Both the position numbers and the translations under genes were made by a program. The notes under the pieces are model-generated. The model made no database searches, was not told the DNA's origin, and saw nothing but the letters and a program-made list of their open reading frames with translations. This document shows positions 19,054-62,769 of a DNA stretch of 64,000 nt, piece by piece (position 1 is the stretch's first letter; every line of letters begins with the position of its first letter). This stretch comes from Candidatus Pelearchaeum maunauluense (lineage in GTDB: Archaea > Thermoproteota > Nitrososphaeria_A > Caldarchaeales > Caldarchaeaceae), in assembly GCA_030059675.1 (NCBI GenBank), contig JANVYQ010000003.1, positions 99,547-163,546 of the forward strand, given 5' to 3'.

Positions 19054-20079
19054 ATGACTCTCATATTCGTCGGCCTCGGTTTAGGCGTCCCACCTCACCT
19101 GACTCTTGAAGCCCTAGAGGTAATACGGTCAGCCGACAGGCTCATCCTAGATTCTTATACCAGCATAATCCCCGACGCTCTCATACAGTTCATCAAGAGG
19201 GAAGCGGGAGATAGGTTGAGAATAGCTGAGCGCAGCCTGCTGGAGGAGAGAAGCGGTGAAGTCTTGGAAGAAGCCTCACGCGGGGAAGTCGCCATACTAG
19301 TGCCAGGAGACCCCTTCATAGCCACAACCCACCAATCTCTAAAAACCGAGGCGCTAAAACGAAAAATCAAAGTGAGGGTTGTTCATGGTCTATCCATCTT
19401 CACAGCAGCAATAAGCGCTTCAGGCCTTCACATATACAAGTTCGGGAGAACAGCAACAATACCGAAGACCAACAACGTTAAGCTCATGTCGCAGCCATAC
19501 AACGTGCTGGCCGAAAACCTATCACGGGGTCTTCATACACTCTTCCTCCTAGACACGGCCGAAGGGGGAGTTAGCGTCGGCGAAGCCCTAAACCTACTAC
19601 TCAGCGCCGAGGAAGAGTTTGGCAGGGGAGTAGTGAGGAGAGACTCACTGGTGATAGCGCTCAGCCGCGTGGGTTATGGAGATTCTAGAACAGTAGCTGG
19701 AAGCATAAGCTCGGTAGCAAACCTAATACCCCAACAACCACCCCATACACTAATCTTCCCAGGAGAACTACACTTCACAGAAAAAGAAGCCGTAAAGGCC
19801 TACTCAATAGACGCTGAGCTAGTAGAGAGACACACCCCATCCGATTACGTTAAGGAGAGAATAGAGCGATACGTGGGAAAATGCAGACGCGTAATAGATA
19901 CGGTTATTGAACAGAGAGCAGCAGACAAGGATTTCATATCCTACGTAGAGGCATACGTAGAGGATAGCCAGCGCTTCATGATGGCGGGAGACTATACAAA
20001 CGCTCTCCTAGCAATAGGCTATGCCGAGGGGTTGCTGGATGCTCTCAAGCTCCTGGGGAGGGCGAGGTTTGAATGGTGA
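19054..20079 (+). CDS. dphB: Diphthine synthase with fused C-terminal DUF357 domain
   Basis: Methyltransferase that trimethylates the modified histidine of EF-2 during diphthamide synthesis. Residues 1 to about 255 match archaeal DphB: LIFVGLGLGVPPHLTLEALE at the start, VPGDPFIATTHQSL near 86, and VHGLSIFTAAISASGLHIYKFG near 111-132. Normal DphB is about 260 residues. The remaining 80 residues (FISYVEAYVEDSQRFMMAGD, then NALLAIGYAEGLLDALKLLG) are a DUF357 domain, which many archaea encode as a separate small protein. It overlaps ribL by seven bases, so the fusion is translated with FAD synthase. The role of DUF357 is unknown. Confidence 0.9.
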   Translation: MTLIFVGLGLGVPPHLTLEALEVIRSADRLILDSYTSIIPDALIQFIKREAGDRLRIAERSLLEERSGEVLEEASRGEVAILVPGDPFIATTHQSLKTEALKRKIKVRVVHGLSIFTAAISASGLHIYKFGRTATIPKTNNVKLMSQPYNVLAENLSRGLHTLFLLDTAEGGVSVGEALNLLLSAEEEFGRGVVRRDSLVIALSRVGYGDSRTVAGSISSVANLIPQQPPHTLIFPGELHFTEKEAVKAYSIDAELVERHTPSDYVKERIERYVGKCRRVIDTVIEQRAADKDFISYVEAYVEDSQRFMMAGDYTNALLAIGYAEGLLDALKLLGRARFEW

Positions 20080-20531
20080 AGAAGAGAAAAACAATACTCA
20101 CCACAGGCGCATTTGACATAATACACCCAGGCCACGTAAGCATGCTCTGGGCTGCAAAAAAGCTGGGAGGAAGAAACGCAAGACTAGTCGTAGTAATTGC
20201 AAGAAACGAGACGGTGAAAAGAAACAAAAACCGCGAACCAGTCTTCGACGAGAAGCTCAGAAGAGCAATAGTCGAGAACCTAAAACCAGTTGATAAAGCA
20301 ATACTCGGCTTCAAGCCCTTCTCATTCGAGAAGGTAATCAAGAAGATCAAACCAGACATGGTCGTGTTCGGCTACGACCAGACAGAGCTCAGGAAGAGCT
20401 TCGAGAAATTCTGTAAGGATAGGGGGTTAAAGATTAGGGTTGTGACTGTTAGGAAGTTTGGAGGAAGGGGAATAAATAGCAGTAGTGATGTTTTCAAGCG
20501 TATTCTTGAGATGGGCAGGCGGGCTAGGTAA
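20073..20531 (+). CDS. ribL: Archaeal FAD synthase RibL
   Basis: Cytidylyltransferase-fold enzyme that adenylates FMN to FAD. The 152 residues show TTGAFDIIHPGHVSML (10-25) with the HxGH nucleotide motif and the RibL-type VVFGYDQTE and GRGINSSSDVFKRI (the closing SSS-type motif). Length is normal. It overlaps the dphB-DUF357 gene by seven bases at its start, and its stop overlaps the 3' end of the converging ribK gene by eight bases, so both archaeal flavin-cofactor enzymes meet tail to tail. Confidence 0.92.
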   Translation: MVKKRKTILTTGAFDIIHPGHVSMLWAAKKLGGRNARLVVVIARNETVKRNKNREPVFDEKLRRAIVENLKPVDKAILGFKPFSFEKVIKKIKPDMVVFGYDQTELRKSFEKFCKDRGLKIRVVTVRKFGGRGINSSSDVFKRILEMGRRAR

Positions 20532-21258
20532 CAGGAGGCTGTGCTGGAGCTTTTGTTTTTGTGAAGTTTTCAAAGAAGGTGGATGGAGGTATAACAACCG
20601 TTAGCTTAACCTTATCCCCGTCTTTGAGGCCGAGCTTACCACGTAGATAAGGCTCTGCAATAACCTCCAGTACAGAGTTATCGTACTGCGTCCTCTCCAC
20701 AAACAGTATAGCGACATCCTCAGTATCGTTCAGCACGGCTTTAATCGCCTTAGCGCCTCCGTATGTGCGCTTCTCATCCCTAAACCCATGTATCTCAATA
20801 GGCGCCAGACGCTGCAACAGGTGGCGGTTCTCTATAGAGTCGCGCGAAAGTAAGCTAATGTTCAGCGTGCCTGGATAGGCCTTGAAGCCCAGCTTCTCCT
20901 CTATCTGCTTCGCATAGCCAGGAAGGCTTATGTAGTAAGCCCCCTCGCCCAGGCCTGTGAATACCCTGCCCTCAAGCGTGATATTTACAGGCCTCTCAAA
21001 AATCGCCTTTAGAGAGAGGTAAACCTCCCTTAGCTGGGATAGTCCCTTCTCGGTTATCTTAACGTAGCTGGTTCTGCCTACTATCCGCCTCTCTATGAAT
21101 CCCTCCTTCTCCAGCTGTATGAGCAGCCTTGATGCAGACTGCTGTGAGGTTCCGAGATATTTTGAGAGCATGGGGGTTGTCATCTTCAGACTATTGGTGA
21201 ACGCGTCCCGCTCAGCTAGAAAGATTAGAACCCGCTCTTTAAAGGAAAGCAGCTGCAT
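20524..21258 (-). CDS. ribK: CTP-dependent riboflavin kinase with N-terminal winged helix
   Basis: Archaeal RibK phosphorylates riboflavin with CTP. The 244 residues contain an N-terminal winged-helix domain (about 1-85, with MTTPMLSKYLGTSQQSASRLL) fused to the kinase (about 90-230; LEGRVFTGLGEGAYYISLPG near 95 and KLGFKAYPGTLNISLL near 117). The HTH-RibK fusion is known in archaea and the HTH part is thought to be a flavin-responsive regulator (RbkR-type). It converges on ribL, suggesting it may control flavin genes; that is inference. Confidence 0.92.
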   Translation of the reverse strand: MQLLSFKERVLIFLAERDAFTNSLKMTTPMLSKYLGTSQQSASRLLIQLEKEGFIERRIVGRTSYVKITEKGLSQLREVYLSLKAIFERPVNITLEGRVFTGLGEGAYYISLPGYAKQIEEKLGFKAYPGTLNISLLSRDSIENRHLLQRLAPIEIHGFRDEKRTYGGAKAIKAVLNDTEDVAILFVERTQYDNSVLEVIAEPYLRGKLGLKDGDKVKLTVVIPPSTFFENFTKTKAPAQPPVT

Positions 21259-21357
21259 CCCCCTTAGAAGTTATGGTACGCGCCCCAGCTTTTAAGGTTG
21301 AAACGCCCATTACGATTTATAAAACCAACGAATCAGAAGGGGAAGGATTGGAAAACA

Positions 21358-21963
21358 TCAAACGGTTAATGTCTCGTTTATTTTAAGCCCCTCACTCGTG
21401 TATAGGAGGATATCTATACCATTACCGCTCCCAGCGTCGCGCGCTATTGAGGAGCGTATGGCCTTCACCGCCAAGTTATAGAGCTCCTCAGATGTCATAT
21501 CCTTCTTATACTCGTTCTCAATAACGCCTACCGCTATCTCTGCGCCTGTTCCAACAACAGCGTAGTCGTCCTCTATTATTGAGCCTAGTGGGTCTAGAAC
21601 TATTACATGCGTCCCCTTATCATCAAGCCCGCCTACTATCGTCTCGGTGAAGTATGGGAAGAAGCGGCTGCTGAAGAGTTGCCAGGAAAGTAGCTTAGCT
21701 ACTGTCTGCACGGATGGCTCTGTCCTGTTCTCAATCCTGTATAGGTTTACTATGGCGGTGGCCTCCTTAACTAGGTTCTGCATGTCAGCCACAACGCCTG
21801 CGCATGCTGCTCCTATCTTCTTGCTGACTGGGAAGACCTTCCTAGCTGATTTGGACAGAACAAAATAACCATATGCGAACCTCTTTTCAGATGCTAGGAC
21901 TACGCTATCCTTCCCAGCTATCCCGACCGTAGTAGCCCCTGGGAGGAAGATTGGCTGCGACAA
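21358..21963 (-). CDS. psmB: Proteasome beta subunit, predicted non-catalytic (Thr1 replaced by Ala)
   Basis: 20S proteasome beta subunit, 201 residues, TTG start at 21961-21963. After an eight-residue leader and glycine, active beta subunits begin TTTVG; here the sequence is ATTVGI, so the position of the nucleophile Thr1 is alanine (residue 10). With that register E17, R19, K33, D166 and S169 are kept, but the S129 equivalent is also alanine (VGTGAEIA). The leader is therefore probably not removed and the subunit inactive. Some crenarchaea have a second, structural beta subunit of this sort. An active partner must be encoded elsewhere. The start faces rtcA across a short divergent region. 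Confidence 0.88.
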   Translation of the reverse strand: MSQPIFLPGATTVGIAGKDSVVLASEKRFAYGYFVLSKSARKVFPVSKKIGAACAGVVADMQNLVKEATAIVNLYRIENRTEPSVQTVAKLLSWQLFSSRFFPYFTETIVGGLDDKGTHVIVLDPLGSIIEDDYAVVGTGAEIAVGVIENEYKKDMTSEELYNLAVKAIRSSIARDAGSGNGIDILLYTSEGLKINETLTV

Positions 21964-22027
21964 GGTTCTGTTCCACCTGCTCGCGGTTATCGTCGTTAAC
22001 GCCCTACTTAACCTTAATCCCTTGACA

Positions 22028-22036
22028 TGCTTAAAT
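22028..22036 (+). promoter_or_regulatory. TATA-like box for rtcA
   Basis: GCTTAAATG lies 30-38 bases before the ATG at 22066, the usual archaeal distance for a transcript with little or no leader. It also argues against the upstream ATG at 22027 as the rtcA start, because the box would then fall inside the coding region. Confidence 0.4.
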
Positions 22037-22065
22037 GGTCTGGTTTATGTAGCTGGCTGTTGGGG

Positions 22066-23157
22066 ATGGCTCCGAGGGTTCTCTCGGTTGACGGCTCTAT
22101 AGGCGAGGGGGGTGGGCAGGTTCTTCGCGTGGCCGTGGCGCTGGCCGCGGTCTTGGGATGCCAGCTTAGGGTGTTTAACATAAGAGCGCGCCGCAGCCCT
22201 CCTGGACTTAGGGCGCAGCACCTAACAGCGGTAAAGGCTGTCGCATCCCTCGCCGACGGGCGCGTAGAGGGCCTGAAAGTAGGCTCAACCCAAATCTCTT
22301 TTGAGCCAGGTGAGCTGAGTGGGGGTAGGATGGAGTTTGACGCGGGTACCGCTGGTAGTACGACGCTAATACTCCAGTCTCTCATGCCTGTCATGGCGTT
22401 TGCTGGCTCGCCTGTTGATGTTGTTTTGAGGGGCGGGACCAACAACCCCATGGCCCCTCCCTACGAGTATCTTGAAAACGTCCTCCTTCCCGTGCTTCGT
22501 GAAATGGGGTTTGACGCCACACTTAAGCTGCATAGGCGCGGCTTCTACCCTAGGGGCCAAGGAGTAATCTCGGCCCACTCAAAGCCCGTGGATGTTCTTA
22601 AGCCAGTGAAGCTGGTTGGGAAGGCGCGCGTGGTGAAGATCACGGGTCTGAGCTATAGCTGTAGGCTGCCTGAGCACATAACTCAGCGTATGGCGCGTTC
22701 CGCTGAGCAGCTGTTAAAGCGGAACGGCTACGATGATGTGAGCATAGCTACTGAGGCCTTAACGCCTGAGAACCCGCGGTGCGCGCCAGACCCTGGAACG
22801 GGGATTATACTATTCGCTCACACGGATTTGGGTACTTTGCTGGCCGTGGATAAGCTGGGTGAGCGCGGCGTTCCCGCTGAGCGTGTGGGTGAGGAGGCTG
22901 CGCGCGGTCTCATGGAGGAGATGCAAGCAAGGGCGCCTGTTGATAGCCATCTGGGGGACCAGTTGGTTGTTTGGACCGCCCTTGCCGCTGGTGAGTCTGA
23001 GTATGAGGTGAGCCGTATAACAAGCCACACGCTTACTAGCGTTGAGGTTTGCAGACAGCTTACTGGGGCTGTTTTCGAGGTTGATGGAAGGCTGGGTGAG
23101 CGTGGCCTGGTTAGGTGTAGGGGAATAGGGCTGAGGAGAGGGGCAGCGTCTGACTAG
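22066..23157 (+). CDS. rtcA: RNA 3'-terminal phosphate cyclase
   Basis: Converts RNA 3' phosphates to 2',3'-cyclic phosphates using ATP. The protein has the opening VDGSIGEGGGQVLRVAVALA (8-27), the GGTNNP and APPYEYLENVLLP block near 124, and the catalytic histidine in ITSHTLTSVEV near 325, preceded by HLGDQLVVW. Length (363 residues) is normal. I take the ATG at 22066 (MAPRVLSVDG) as start: it has TTGGGG just before it and a TATA-like element 30-38 bases upstream. The in-frame ATG at 22027 would add 13 unconserved residues. Confidence 0.93.
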   Translation: MAPRVLSVDGSIGEGGGQVLRVAVALAAVLGCQLRVFNIRARRSPPGLRAQHLTAVKAVASLADGRVEGLKVGSTQISFEPGELSGGRMEFDAGTAGSTTLILQSLMPVMAFAGSPVDVVLRGGTNNPMAPPYEYLENVLLPVLREMGFDATLKLHRRGFYPRGQGVISAHSKPVDVLKPVKLVGKARVVKITGLSYSCRLPEHITQRMARSAEQLLKRNGYDDVSIATEALTPENPRCAPDPGTGIILFAHTDLGTLLAVDKLGERGVPAERVGEEAARGLMEEMQARAPVDSHLGDQLVVWTALAAGESEYEVSRITSHTLTSVEVCRQLTGAVFEVDGRLGERGLVRCRGIGLRRGAASD

Positions 23158-23177
23158 CTTTTCTGGCCATGGATAAC

Positions 23178-23187
23178 ATCTTTAAAC
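23178..23187 (+). promoter_or_regulatory. TATA-like box for nadM
   Basis: The ATCTTTAAAC stretch is an archaeal TATA-like element 34-43 bases before the proposed ATC start at 23221, so a transcript would begin roughly ten bases upstream of that codon. It supports initiation before the conserved active-site region rather than at the internal GTG 23284. Confidence 0.4.
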
Positions 23188-23220
23188 TACCCTTTACGCG
23201 GCACGGCTGGGGGCTCGCCT

Positions 23221-23757
23221 ATCACGAGCAGGGGTCTATTTATAGGGCGTTTCCAACCGTTCCACCTAGGGCATCTGGAGGCAGTGAAGTATATCCTCTC
23301 TAGGGAGGATGAAGTTATTATAGGTGTGGGGAGTGCGCAGTATAGCCATACGTTTGAAAATCCCCTAACGGCTGGTGAGAGGATTGAGGTGATTTATAGG
23401 ACTCTCAAGGCTTCTGGCGTGGATTTGGGGAGGTGCTTCATCACGCCCATACCAGACCTGGGAGAGCATATGCTCTGGGTTTCTAGGGTTCGCTCTTTCT
23501 GCCCTCCTTTTCAGACGGTCTATAGCAACAATCCGCTCGTTGCGCGGCTCTTCAGCGAGGCGGGCTACCAGATAAGGCCTGTTCCCCTGTTTGAGCGGGA
23601 GAAATATATGGCGACTGAGATAAGGAAGAAAATAGCCAAAGGCGACGATTGGCGTAGCTTAGTTCATCCAGCTGCTTATGAGTATCTGGTGAGTATAGGT
23701 CTGAGTGAGAGGATTAGATACATACTTGCTGACGACCGCTCGAGCGGGGGAGGATGA
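23221..23757 (+). CDS. nadM: Nicotinamide-nucleotide adenylyltransferase (NadM) with no ATG/GTG/TTG start
   Basis: Makes NAD from NMN and ATP. The conserved N-terminus xTSRGLFIGRFQPFHLGHLE, with the HxGH active site, is encoded from 23221, followed by IIGVGSAQYSHTFENPLTAGERIE. No ATG, GTG or TTG exists in frame between the rtcA stop (23157) and this block; the codon where family members have Met is ATC (23221-23223), with GGGGG eight bases upstream and a TATA-like box at 23178. The first ordinary start, GTG 23284, would delete the active site. So either ATC initiates or a base is mis-called. The 3' end overlaps the convergent SAM hydrolase gene by 44 bases. The 178-residue length is normal. 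Confidence 0.88.
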   Translation: MTSRGLFIGRFQPFHLGHLEAVKYILSREDEVIIGVGSAQYSHTFENPLTAGERIEVIYRTLKASGVDLGRCFITPIPDLGEHMLWVSRVRSFCPPFQTVYSNNPLVARLFSEAGYQIRPVPLFEREKYMATEIRKKIAKGDDWRSLVHPAAYEYLVSIGLSERIRYILADDRSSGGG

Positions 23758-24538
23758 GCCTAATCTTATCGCCTGACCTGACACGATATTTATGCGCTGC
23801 ATTCCCCATGTTTATCGCGAGCTCAAGGTAGCCTGTGCCGCCTATCACTAGGGCGGGCTTTCCGCGCTCCACGTAGCCGTATGATGGGACGAATGGGGCG
23901 GTAATTCCCTTTCCCTTGATGAGAATCTTAGCCCTTTTATTCTTCATGGAAATCTCGCTGTGGTGGATGTTTGTTATTATGTTTCCGAACTTATCAACCC
24001 TGAGAACAACAGCTCTTATCTCATTCCCATTATACTCTGGCTTTGGTATCTCAATCCTGGCGTACTCAAATGTCCGTCTAGCGAAGCTTTCTATGTCCTC
24101 GCCCTTGACTATCCTTCCAGCAACCTCCGCAAATACATCCCTACCATGAAACGTTTCAGAGAACCGCGCTGGCAGCTTTGATGAATCTATCCACCACGCT
24201 TCTATAATCTCCTCAGACGAGGCCGCGGGATACATTACCCCCGTATCAGGCCCTATGAAGACGTTCCCACGTTTAGTGATGAAGACTATTCCCCTCCTCT
24301 CAGTGCCTACCTTCGGGTCTACAACGCAGATGAAGATTGTATTCTCTGGGAAGCTTTTGGCGGCTTCCTTTAGTAGAAACGCAGCCTCAAACTCGTTGAA
24401 GCTCTCAACCTCATGAGTTATATCCACCAGCTGCACATCCCTTCTGTGGCGTAGTATGACCGCCTTAAGCTCGCTCACATAGGTATCGCGATAACCGTAG
24501 TCGGTCATCAAGGCTATTATAGGCCGCTCCATAGCCAT
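23714..24538 (-). CDS. SAM hydrolase (adenosine-forming), DUF62 family
   Basis: S-adenosylmethionine hydroxide adenosyltransferase, which cleaves SAM to adenosine and methionine; related to fluorinase and chlorinase. The 274 residues open with PIIALMTDYGYRDTYVSELKAV (5-26) with the conserved Asp, followed by VDITHEVESFN near 38, VVDPKVGTERRGI near 72 and FIGPDTGVM near 93. There is no sign of the halogenase insertion loop. The last 15 codons overlap nadM on the other strand, and the start is divergent from pth2. Confidence 0.88.
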   Translation of the reverse strand: MAMERPIIALMTDYGYRDTYVSELKAVILRHRRDVQLVDITHEVESFNEFEAAFLLKEAAKSFPENTIFICVVDPKVGTERRGIVFITKRGNVFIGPDTGVMYPAASSEEIIEAWWIDSSKLPARFSETFHGRDVFAEVAGRIVKGEDIESFARRTFEYARIEIPKPEYNGNEIRAVVLRVDKFGNIITNIHHSEISMKNKRAKILIKGKGITAPFVPSYGYVERGKPALVIGGTGYLELAINMGNAAHKYRVRSGDKIRLILPRSSGRQQVCI

Positions 24539-24615
24539 CTCCGAGTCTTGATAAAAGCCCTATGAATAAAGCTAGTGGTATGCTTTTATGGAGAGGCTCA
24601 TAGGGGTAGGGAGCC

Positions 24616-24969
24616 TTGGGGCTTAAGCAGTGTATCGTCATACGTCGGGACCTTAGGATGAGTGTGGGCAAGACCGCTGCCCAGGCTGCTCATGCATCGG
24701 TGTCGGCGCTTGAAGAGGCTAGGCGGACGCGGCCTGAGTGGGTTAGGCTATGGCTTGCGGAAGGGCAGAAAAAGATAGTCCTAAAGGCCGATACAGCTGA
24801 GGAGATTAAGGAATTGGCGCAACTATGCGATGTGCGCGGAATCCCCTACAGCGTTGTCCAAGACGCTGGACTTACAGAACTACCGCCTGGAACTATAACA
24901 GCTTTAGGCATAGGGCCAGCCCCAGAAGAGATTCTTGAACCAATAACTGGGAAGCTTAAGCTCCTCTAG
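24616..24969 (+). CDS. pth2: Peptidyl-tRNA hydrolase Pth2
   Basis: Archaeal/eukaryotic type peptidyl-tRNA hydrolase that recycles stalled tRNAs. The 117 residues carry the family blocks QCIVIRRDLRMSVGKTAAQAAHASV (5-29, catalytic K/H region), GQKKIVLKADTAEEI near 50-64, and DAGLTELPPGTITALGIGPAP near 83-103. The TTG at 24616 is the start, with GGGAG six bases earlier; the upstream ATG frame ends in TAA at once. truD starts ten bases after the stop. Confidence 0.93.
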   Translation: MGLKQCIVIRRDLRMSVGKTAAQAAHASVSALEEARRTRPEWVRLWLAEGQKKIVLKADTAEEIKELAQLCDVRGIPYSVVQDAGLTELPPGTITALGIGPAPEEILEPITGKLKLL

Positions 24970-60588: not shown

Positions 60589-62769
60589 TTAGCCTATCAT
60601 GGTCAAGGGCTTCTCGGTGGTTCTCAGCAGTTCTCCTATACGCTCATACTCGCGGGCCATCTGTGGTGATATGCTCGGCTTAACCATATTGAGAGCCTCC
60701 TCAAAATCGGCTTTACTCACATACTCGGCATCAATATCGCGTCTTAGTGCCGAGAGGGCAGCCTCGCGGCAGAGCGACTCCAGGTCAGCGCCAGAATAGC
60801 CCTCTGTGCGCGAGGCTATCTCCTCCAGATTAACGTCATCGGTCAACGGCATCCTACGGGTGTATATCTTGAGTATGGATAGGCGGGACTTCTCATCTGG
60901 AGGCGGGACGAAGATGAGCCTGTCAAACCGCCCTGGCCTGAGAACCGCTGGGTCAAGCATATCAGGCCTGTTGGTAGCGCCTATAACTATAATGTCGGAC
61001 AGCTCCTCTATCCCATCCATCTCAGCCAAGAGCTGGCTTGAGACCCTGTTAGTTACTCCTGAGCTGTCTTCCGCCATATCCTTACGCGGCACGATGGACT
61101 CTATCTCGTCTAGGAAAACAACAGCAGGCGCTGCTTGCCGCGCTTTCCTGAATGTCTCACGGATAGCTTTCTCCGACTCCCCAACCCACTTGGAGTATAT
61201 CTCAGGCCCCTTAACAGTGATGAAGTTCGCCTCACTCTCGGTGGCTATAGCCTTCGCCAGCAGCGTCTTTCCGCATCCAGGCGGGCCATAGAGGAGAATC
61301 CCCTTCGGCGGCTTAATACCCATCTTCTCAAACTTCTCAGGATACTTGAGAGGCCACTCGATAGCCTCGATCAACCGTTGCTTAACCTCCTCAAGACCTC
61401 CTATGTCCTCCCACCTCACGGTGGGCGTCTCAACCTCGACCTCACGCAGCGCGCTGGGCGTAATCTCCTTATACGCCTCCATGAAGTCCTTCATAGTAAC
61501 CTCAAGGCTGTTAAGTATCTCAGGCGATATCTTCTCCTCGGAGAAGTCTATGCTGGGGAGTATCCGTCTTATAGCCTTCATAGCAGCCTCGCGGCAGAGG
61601 GCTGCTACATCAGCGCCGGTATAGCCGCGGGTAATCTCGCTAATCTTATCAAGGTCAACGTCCTTCGAGAGAGGCATTCCGCGTGTGTGTATCTGGAGTA
61701 TCTCGCGCCTACCCCTCTTATCTGGTATTCCTATCTCTATTTCGCGGTCGAATCTCCCAGGCCTCCTGAGGGCTGGGTCAAGAGCGTTAGGCCTGTTGGT
61801 AGCGCCTATAACTATTACAGAGCCTCTGCTCTCCAGCCCGTCCATCAGAGCGAGGAGCTGCGCCACAACACGCTTCTCAACCTCGCCAGTAACCTCGCTC
61901 CTCTTGGGAGCTATCGCGTCTATCTCGTCTATGAAGATTATACTAGGCGCCTCCTCCTCTGCCTTCCTGAAAATCTCACGCAGCCTAGCCTCGGTCTCGC
62001 CGTAGTACTTGTTCATTATCTCAGGTCCATTAATCAGGATGAAGTTAGCCTCCGCTTCTGTGGCTACCGCTTTGGCTAGCAGCGTCTTTCCGCATCCAGG
62101 CGGGCCGTAGAGAAGTACTCCCTTTGGAGGCTCTATGCCCAGCTTCTGGAATAGCTCTGGGAATCGTAGGGGTAGCTCTATCATCTCGCGGACGCGTTGA
62201 ATCTGCTCCTGGAGGCCGCCTATGTCCTCGTAGGTAACGCTTGTCCTGAGCGTCTTCTCCTGCATTACCCGCGAGTGGATTATCAGCTTCGTCTTCGGCG
62301 TTATCTTAACAATACCCGAAGGCCTGGTCTGGATTACTGCGAAGGTGAATAGGTTTCCGAAGAAGAGGACAGGCACTATATTCTTCTGGACGATGGGATA
62401 CTCTATAAGCCTGCTCTTAACAAGCTTTGTAAAATTCTCATCAGGCTTTACAGATGTGTTGAACGGTGCCATCACTACCAACTGGGCTTCCTTCACCTGT
62501 GCTTTCCTTACTATCACATAATCGTTAAGCGATACTCCTGCGTTGTTTCTGATGTATCCATCTATTCTGATTATGTCTTTATCCCTTTCATCCTCTATAT
62601 AGCCCAGCCAGAGCGTTGCTGCCGCTAACTTCTTTCCCTTAATCTCTATTATGTCTCCTGTCTGAAGCCCTGCCTCCGCGCCGACACTCCTGTCAATCCT
62701 AGCTATTCCATAACCTACATCGCGTTGTTTTGCCTCTGCGACGCGGAGACGCAGCTCCTTAACGCTCAT
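60589..62769 (-). CDS. cdc48: CDC48/p97-type AAA+ ATPase
   Basis: Two-ring unfoldase of 726 residues. An N-domain (1-180; [20 protein letters not shown] and the double-psi barrel) precedes two AAA modules. D1 Walker A GPPGCGKT is near 217, D1 Walker [11 protein letters not shown] near 276; D2 Walker A near 491, Walker [10 protein letters not shown] near 550. Arginine-finger PGRFDR sequences occur in both. It probably feeds the proteasome, whose beta subunit is encoded near 21.5 kb. A TATA box lies 25-33 bases before the ATG. Confidence 0.96.

Follow-up and report, generated by a model that had tools for sequence, protein, structure and literature searches.

The window, a stretch of 64,000 nucleotides from Candidatus Pelearchaeum maunauluense, encodes at 21358..21963 on the minus strand a proteasome beta subunit with alanine in place of the catalytic threonine. 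This protein is very probably a non-catalytic member of mixed beta rings in a 20S proteasome, where a second beta subunit with threonine at mature position 1 (Thr1) performs the proteolysis. The earlier note on this DNA had likewise proposed a structural or regulatory ring member, the structural role being in agreement with the role reported for the Sulfolobus acidocaldarius counterpart in the accessible part of PMC4569737.

The window subunit would fold and pack as any beta subunit, contact the alpha ring, and form part of the two inner rings. Because Ala1 leaves no nucleophile, it would be unable to cleave substrates or to remove its own short extension, and proteolysis would be carried out by the Thr1 beta subunit, encoded elsewhere in the genome and set in the same rings. 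The dead cleft may in addition help shape the neighboring active site. In eukaryotic structures, a neighboring beta subunit lines part of the active site's pocket, and by analogy the dead subunit may shape specificity in the particle of the window organism, an idea already raised in the earlier note.

The window gene encodes a proteasome beta subunit without Thr1

The reading frame runs from 21963 to 21358 on the minus strand, is open throughout, and encodes 201 amino acids from a TTG start codon, which aligned with the ATG starts of relatives (e.g., L006). A domain search revealed a PF00227 match spanning the whole protein (E 6.3e-52), and the predicted structure model (pLDDT 85.4) had the proteasome beta fold, its top fold matches all being proteasome beta subunits. 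The gene is a true proteasome beta subunit gene of the PF00227 fold family. Against TIGR03634, the model of catalytic archaeal beta subunits, the protein scored 219.1 bits, just under the curated cut-off of 224 bits.

Residues were numbered according to the mature T. acidophilum beta subunit, position 1 being residue 10 of the window protein. Translation and alignment showed that the position-1 codon (21934..21936, minus strand) specifies Ala where the catalytic Thr is expected, followed by Thr2 and Thr3 (Pro-Gly-Ala-Thr-Thr). Among the residues of a catalytic beta subunit, Asp/Glu17 (here Glu, the same as in T. acidophilum), Lys33, Asp166, and Ser169 were present and Thr1 was absent; Gly47 was also kept. 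The alignment confirmed the change of Thr1 to Ala and the retention of Lys33 and Asp166 described in the earlier note, whereas its placement of Ala at the Ser129 position was off by two, positions 129, 130, and 131 being Thr, Gly, and Ala, respectively.

The nine residues that precede Ala1 form an N-terminal extension (21937..21963, minus strand) with Pro-Gly at its end, and this pair of residues, at -2 and -1, was observed in 31/31 rows of the window's class. As there is no Thr1 for self-processing, this short extension probably stays uncleaved.

A start or reading error hiding Thr1 had been named in the earlier note as grounds for abandoning its proposal, and a sequencing error, a wrong start, or a pseudogene would be in keeping with the TTG start and the TIGR03634 score below the cut-off. 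However, 31/31 class rows shared Ala1, Thr1 was absent from 80/80 named rows as well, and the reading frame was not only open but conserved. The relatives thus already refute such an explanation, the probability of which is close to nil. Ala1 in 31/31 class genomes likewise excluded a local mutation as its source. G001, a genome of the same genus, has a copy at 100% identity.

A second beta subunit with Thr1 is encoded in the same genome

The source genome (G000; 1.79 Mb, 94% complete) contains three PF00227 genes, namely those of an alpha subunit (contig C9), an intact beta subunit (C10), and the window Ala1 beta subunit. The intact beta subunit, at G000:C10:28514-29059, has Gly followed by Thr-Thr-Thr, together with Asp17, Lys33, and Ser129. 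The genome search therefore found the second beta subunit with an intact Thr-Thr-Thr that the earlier note had called for. A non-Thr1 beta subunit beside an intact second one in the same genome is one of the features of an inert beta subunit of the Saci0662 type. This kind is already known from S. acidocaldarius, and the window protein adds another member.

In S. acidocaldarius (Anjum et al. 2015), the alpha/Saci0662 particle assembled in an inactive form and became active when the second beta subunit (Saci0909) was added, according to the accessible part of PMC4569737. The same part of that paper reports that the tagged active beta subunit co-purified with alpha only when Saci0662 was present; therefore, the active subunit needs the dead one. 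The alpha/Saci0662 barrel does not need the active subunit for its stability (PMC4569737, accessible part; PDB 6z46), as would be expected if cells contained two separate particles, one an inactive alpha/dead-beta barrel with a decoy, storage, or regulatory function, the other an active alpha/Thr1-beta barrel. The failure of the active subunit to co-purify with alpha in the absence of Saci0662 (PMC4569737, accessible part) argues against such an active barrel, and we consider this arrangement improbable. By analogy with this one Sulfolobus species, we infer mixed rings in the window organism, and a particle with fewer than 14 active sites.

Among relatives in the family, L299 (G005), L300 (G002), L301 (G003), and partly L302 (G007) showed an extra adjacent pair of alpha-like and beta-like genes. 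The beta-like gene of this pair reads Met/Val-Thr-Thr-Ile-Val-Gly, has nearly no propeptide, and retains a complete active-site frame; the pair therefore perhaps encodes a second proteasome-like particle. This extra pair was not found in the window genome.

The loss of Thr1 is conserved across the phylum

Ala1 was found in 31/31 genomes read in the window's class (seven further class genomes were found outside this count). Outside the class, 70 of the 102 phylum genomes found were read, such that every listed family code was represented, and position 1 was Ala in 58, Gly in 9, Ser in 3, and Thr in 0; six of the nine Gly rows have a gap at position 1 in the larger alignment, Gly being given by the smaller alignment and the residue count. 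The second beta subunit had Thr1 in 29/29 rows. Among the best 80 of 530 confirmed named records, which overlap in part with the genomes counted in the phylum, position 1 was Ala in 77 and Gly in 3, and those closest to the window protein, from Caldarchaeum, Calditenuaceae, Wolframiiraptor, and Geocrenenecus, place its organism in the Aigarchaeota group.

Thr2, Lys33, Gly47, Gly130, and Asp166 were invariant in 101 phylum rows. Judging from these alignments, the active-site frame of the dead beta subunit is under strong selection despite its lost nucleophile. Since such conservation is unexpected in a purely structural part, the presence of Lys33, Gly47, and Asp166 in 101/101 rows could point to a further role beyond structure.

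The invariance of Thr2, which extended to the 80 named rows, and the retention of Lys33, Asp166, and Gly47 would also suit a subunit that is active after all, its neighbor trimming it such that Thr2 is exposed as a new nucleophile. Activity through the next Thr was indeed the route by which the earlier note considered that its reading could fail. However, Thr2 was equally invariant in the active beta subunits (29/29), and its conservation therefore needs no catalytic reason; moreover, position 2 was often not Thr in the dead rows of Asgard archaea described below (Thr in 22/31). The accessible part of PMC4569737 reports equivalent Thr residues in both S. acidocaldarius beta subunits, and that Saci0662 shortened to its Thr assembled yet was inactive. 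In our alignment, Ala1-Thr2 was read in a row that matches the 6z46 chain at 98.9% identity across 179 residues, and hence the Thr exposed in that experiment was probably Thr2. The alignment thus suggests why Saci0662 is inactive, in that its noted Thr probably lies at position 2 and position 1 is Ala in this near-identical row. Given the inactive shortened protein, catalysis by Thr2 is highly improbable, and we retain a non-catalytic role for the window subunit.

The unfoldase is probably of the Cdc48 type

No PAN was detected over the curated cut-off in G000, while 4/14 control genomes passed, and PAN was accordingly ruled out as the unfoldase. Three genes of the genome encode Cdc48-type proteins, each with a pair of AAA domains, and one of these genes lies in the window (60589-62769, minus strand). 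Because no PAN passed the cut-off, the unfoldase is probably one of these three proteins. Inspection by eye did not reveal on any of them a hydrophobic-Tyr-X tail. The earlier note had placed the beta gene near CDC48; the Cdc48-type gene of the window is approximately 38.6 kb away, and local linkage was rejected on account of this distance.

The genes around the beta gene (window 19054-24969) encode Dph5-like, RibL-like, CTP-dependent riboflavin kinase, RtcA, NadM-like, SAM-HAT, and Pth2 proteins. Such neighbors recur beside the dead beta genes of related archaea, with RibK in 18/18 class loci and NadM in 27/62 other loci. The neighborhood consists of metabolic or RNA genes and provided no functional lead. 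At L309 561-2469 (G000:C16) of the genome, a gene for a single-AAA protein of 371 aa, which by eye resembles Vps4, adjoins an opposite-strand gene for a 266-aa coiled protein, possibly its ESCRT-III/CdvB partner.

Dead and active beta subunits also coexist in Asgard archaea

One named match, L167, was labelled Asgard, and we examined 39 genomes from its phylum. Arf-like GTPases were present in 30/39 of these genomes and 0/14 controls, and the phylum therefore fits Asgard. The genomes contain 84 beta places, of which 82 entered the main alignment count; the last two, read separately, both had Ala1, and one of them, L311, contains an internal stop. One or more beta subunits of each kind, Thr1 and non-Thr1, were found in 33/39 genomes, and the remaining 6 had a single beta subunit, with Thr1 each time. 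Hence, wherever an Asgard genome had two or more beta matches, a dead subunit was among them. Position 1 of the 33 non-Thr1 rows was Ala in 30, Ser in 2, and Gly in 1. Two Asgard beta subunits with Ser1, L289 (G147) and L292 (G156), also lacked Lys33 and Ser169, which in terms of sequence is a further step of active-site decay.

Literature searches yielded no paper stating a phylum-wide loss of Thr1 in the window's phylum and none on dead beta subunits in Asgard archaea; this is weak evidence, as subscription papers were mostly beyond reach. According to the accessible part of one recent review (PMC13022661), archaeal beta rings typically contain a single kind of beta subunit, with 14 peptidase sites, and a single kind is likewise given as typical in that of a second recent review (PMC12650242). 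The genomes read in the window's phylum and the 33/39 Asgard genomes that have two or more beta subunits suggest that this description does not fit them; in their particles, a conserved dead partner probably accompanies a reduced number of active sites.

Origin of the dead beta subunits

The main tree was built from an alignment stripped of position 3, of everything before it, and of the remaining catalytic positions, and after removal of twelve odd or near-duplicate rows, including L289 and L287; the trees took in only part of the rows read in the counts. Archaeal Thr1 beta subunits and eukaryotic beta1, beta2, and beta5 formed one clade (support 99/99), outside which fell the dead rows of both archaeal phyla and of eukaryotes, the window protein and the Saci0662-like row L079 among them. 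The Asgard beta subunits grouped with those of Thermoproteota, dead with dead and active with active. The main tree and an earlier one placed active and dead subunits on opposite sides, and a third tree, in which human beta2 was absent, placed beta6 at the dead/active border with weak support (73/89). Because the dead side of the main tree was not one well-supported clade, a single origin of the archaeal dead beta subunits is likely rather than certain.

Profiles of the archaeal dead and active beta subunits correctly sorted archaeal rows in 60/60 leave-one-out trials. For eukaryotic beta1, beta2, and beta5, the score on the active profile exceeded that on the dead profile by 16 to 23 bits. 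The difference between the dead and active profiles was +21.2 (human) and +1.4 (yeast) for beta3, +7.9 and +9.5 for beta6, and +7.0 and -6.4 for beta7, while beta4 favored the active profile (-5.9 and -13.8). Constraining the eukaryotic rows to one clade was not rejected with 14 rows (p 0.233), nor with 10 rows, beta4 and beta7 being left out (p 0.598); in the latter test, the tree with a single eukaryotic clade was slightly better. As a single eukaryotic clade was not rejected, we make no claim of common descent for eukaryotic and archaeal dead beta subunits. It is conceivable, at somewhat less than even probability, that the split between cutting and non-cutting subunits predates eukaryotes, that the ancestor of Thermoproteota and Asgard archaea had a mixed ring of dead (Ala1) and active subunits, and that at least beta3 and beta6 descend from the dead one and did not arise by separate losses. 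If the eukaryotic dead subunits do share the archaeal origin, the mixed ring was inherited, not invented.

Comparison with known proteasomes

By sequence and by fold, the nearest solved structure to the window protein was the Saci0613/Saci0662 particle (PDB 6z46). Saci0662 was 45% identical to the window model in the fold search, and both genomes have an intact second beta subunit. Saci0662 is inert by itself in vitro, whereas the window subunit is likened to it from its sequence and predicted model. The extensions differ, being Phe-Leu-Pro-Gly in the window protein and Glu-Glu-Leu-Pro in the Sulfolobus-like row, and S. acidocaldarius has PAN (PMC4569737, accessible part), in contrast to the window genome, where no PAN passed the cut-off.

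Eukaryotic beta3 (PSMB3) and beta6 (PSMB1) resemble the window subunit in lacking Thr1, and Lys33 is kept in beta3 and in human and yeast beta6. In the fold search, the highest-ranking chains from outside the archaea were mouse and bovine beta3 (ranks 11-12, 26% identity). Eukaryotes have seven different beta subunits per ring, compared to the two proposed for the window organism. Pyrococcus furiosus, with PsmB1 and PsmB2, has one alpha and two beta subunits, the same set as the window genome, and its beta1 is needed for particle rebuilding (PMC3605417, accessible part). Both P. furiosus beta subunits carry the Thr, which was mutated to Ala by the authors to abolish activity (PMC3605417, accessible part), unlike the natural Ala1 of the window subunit.
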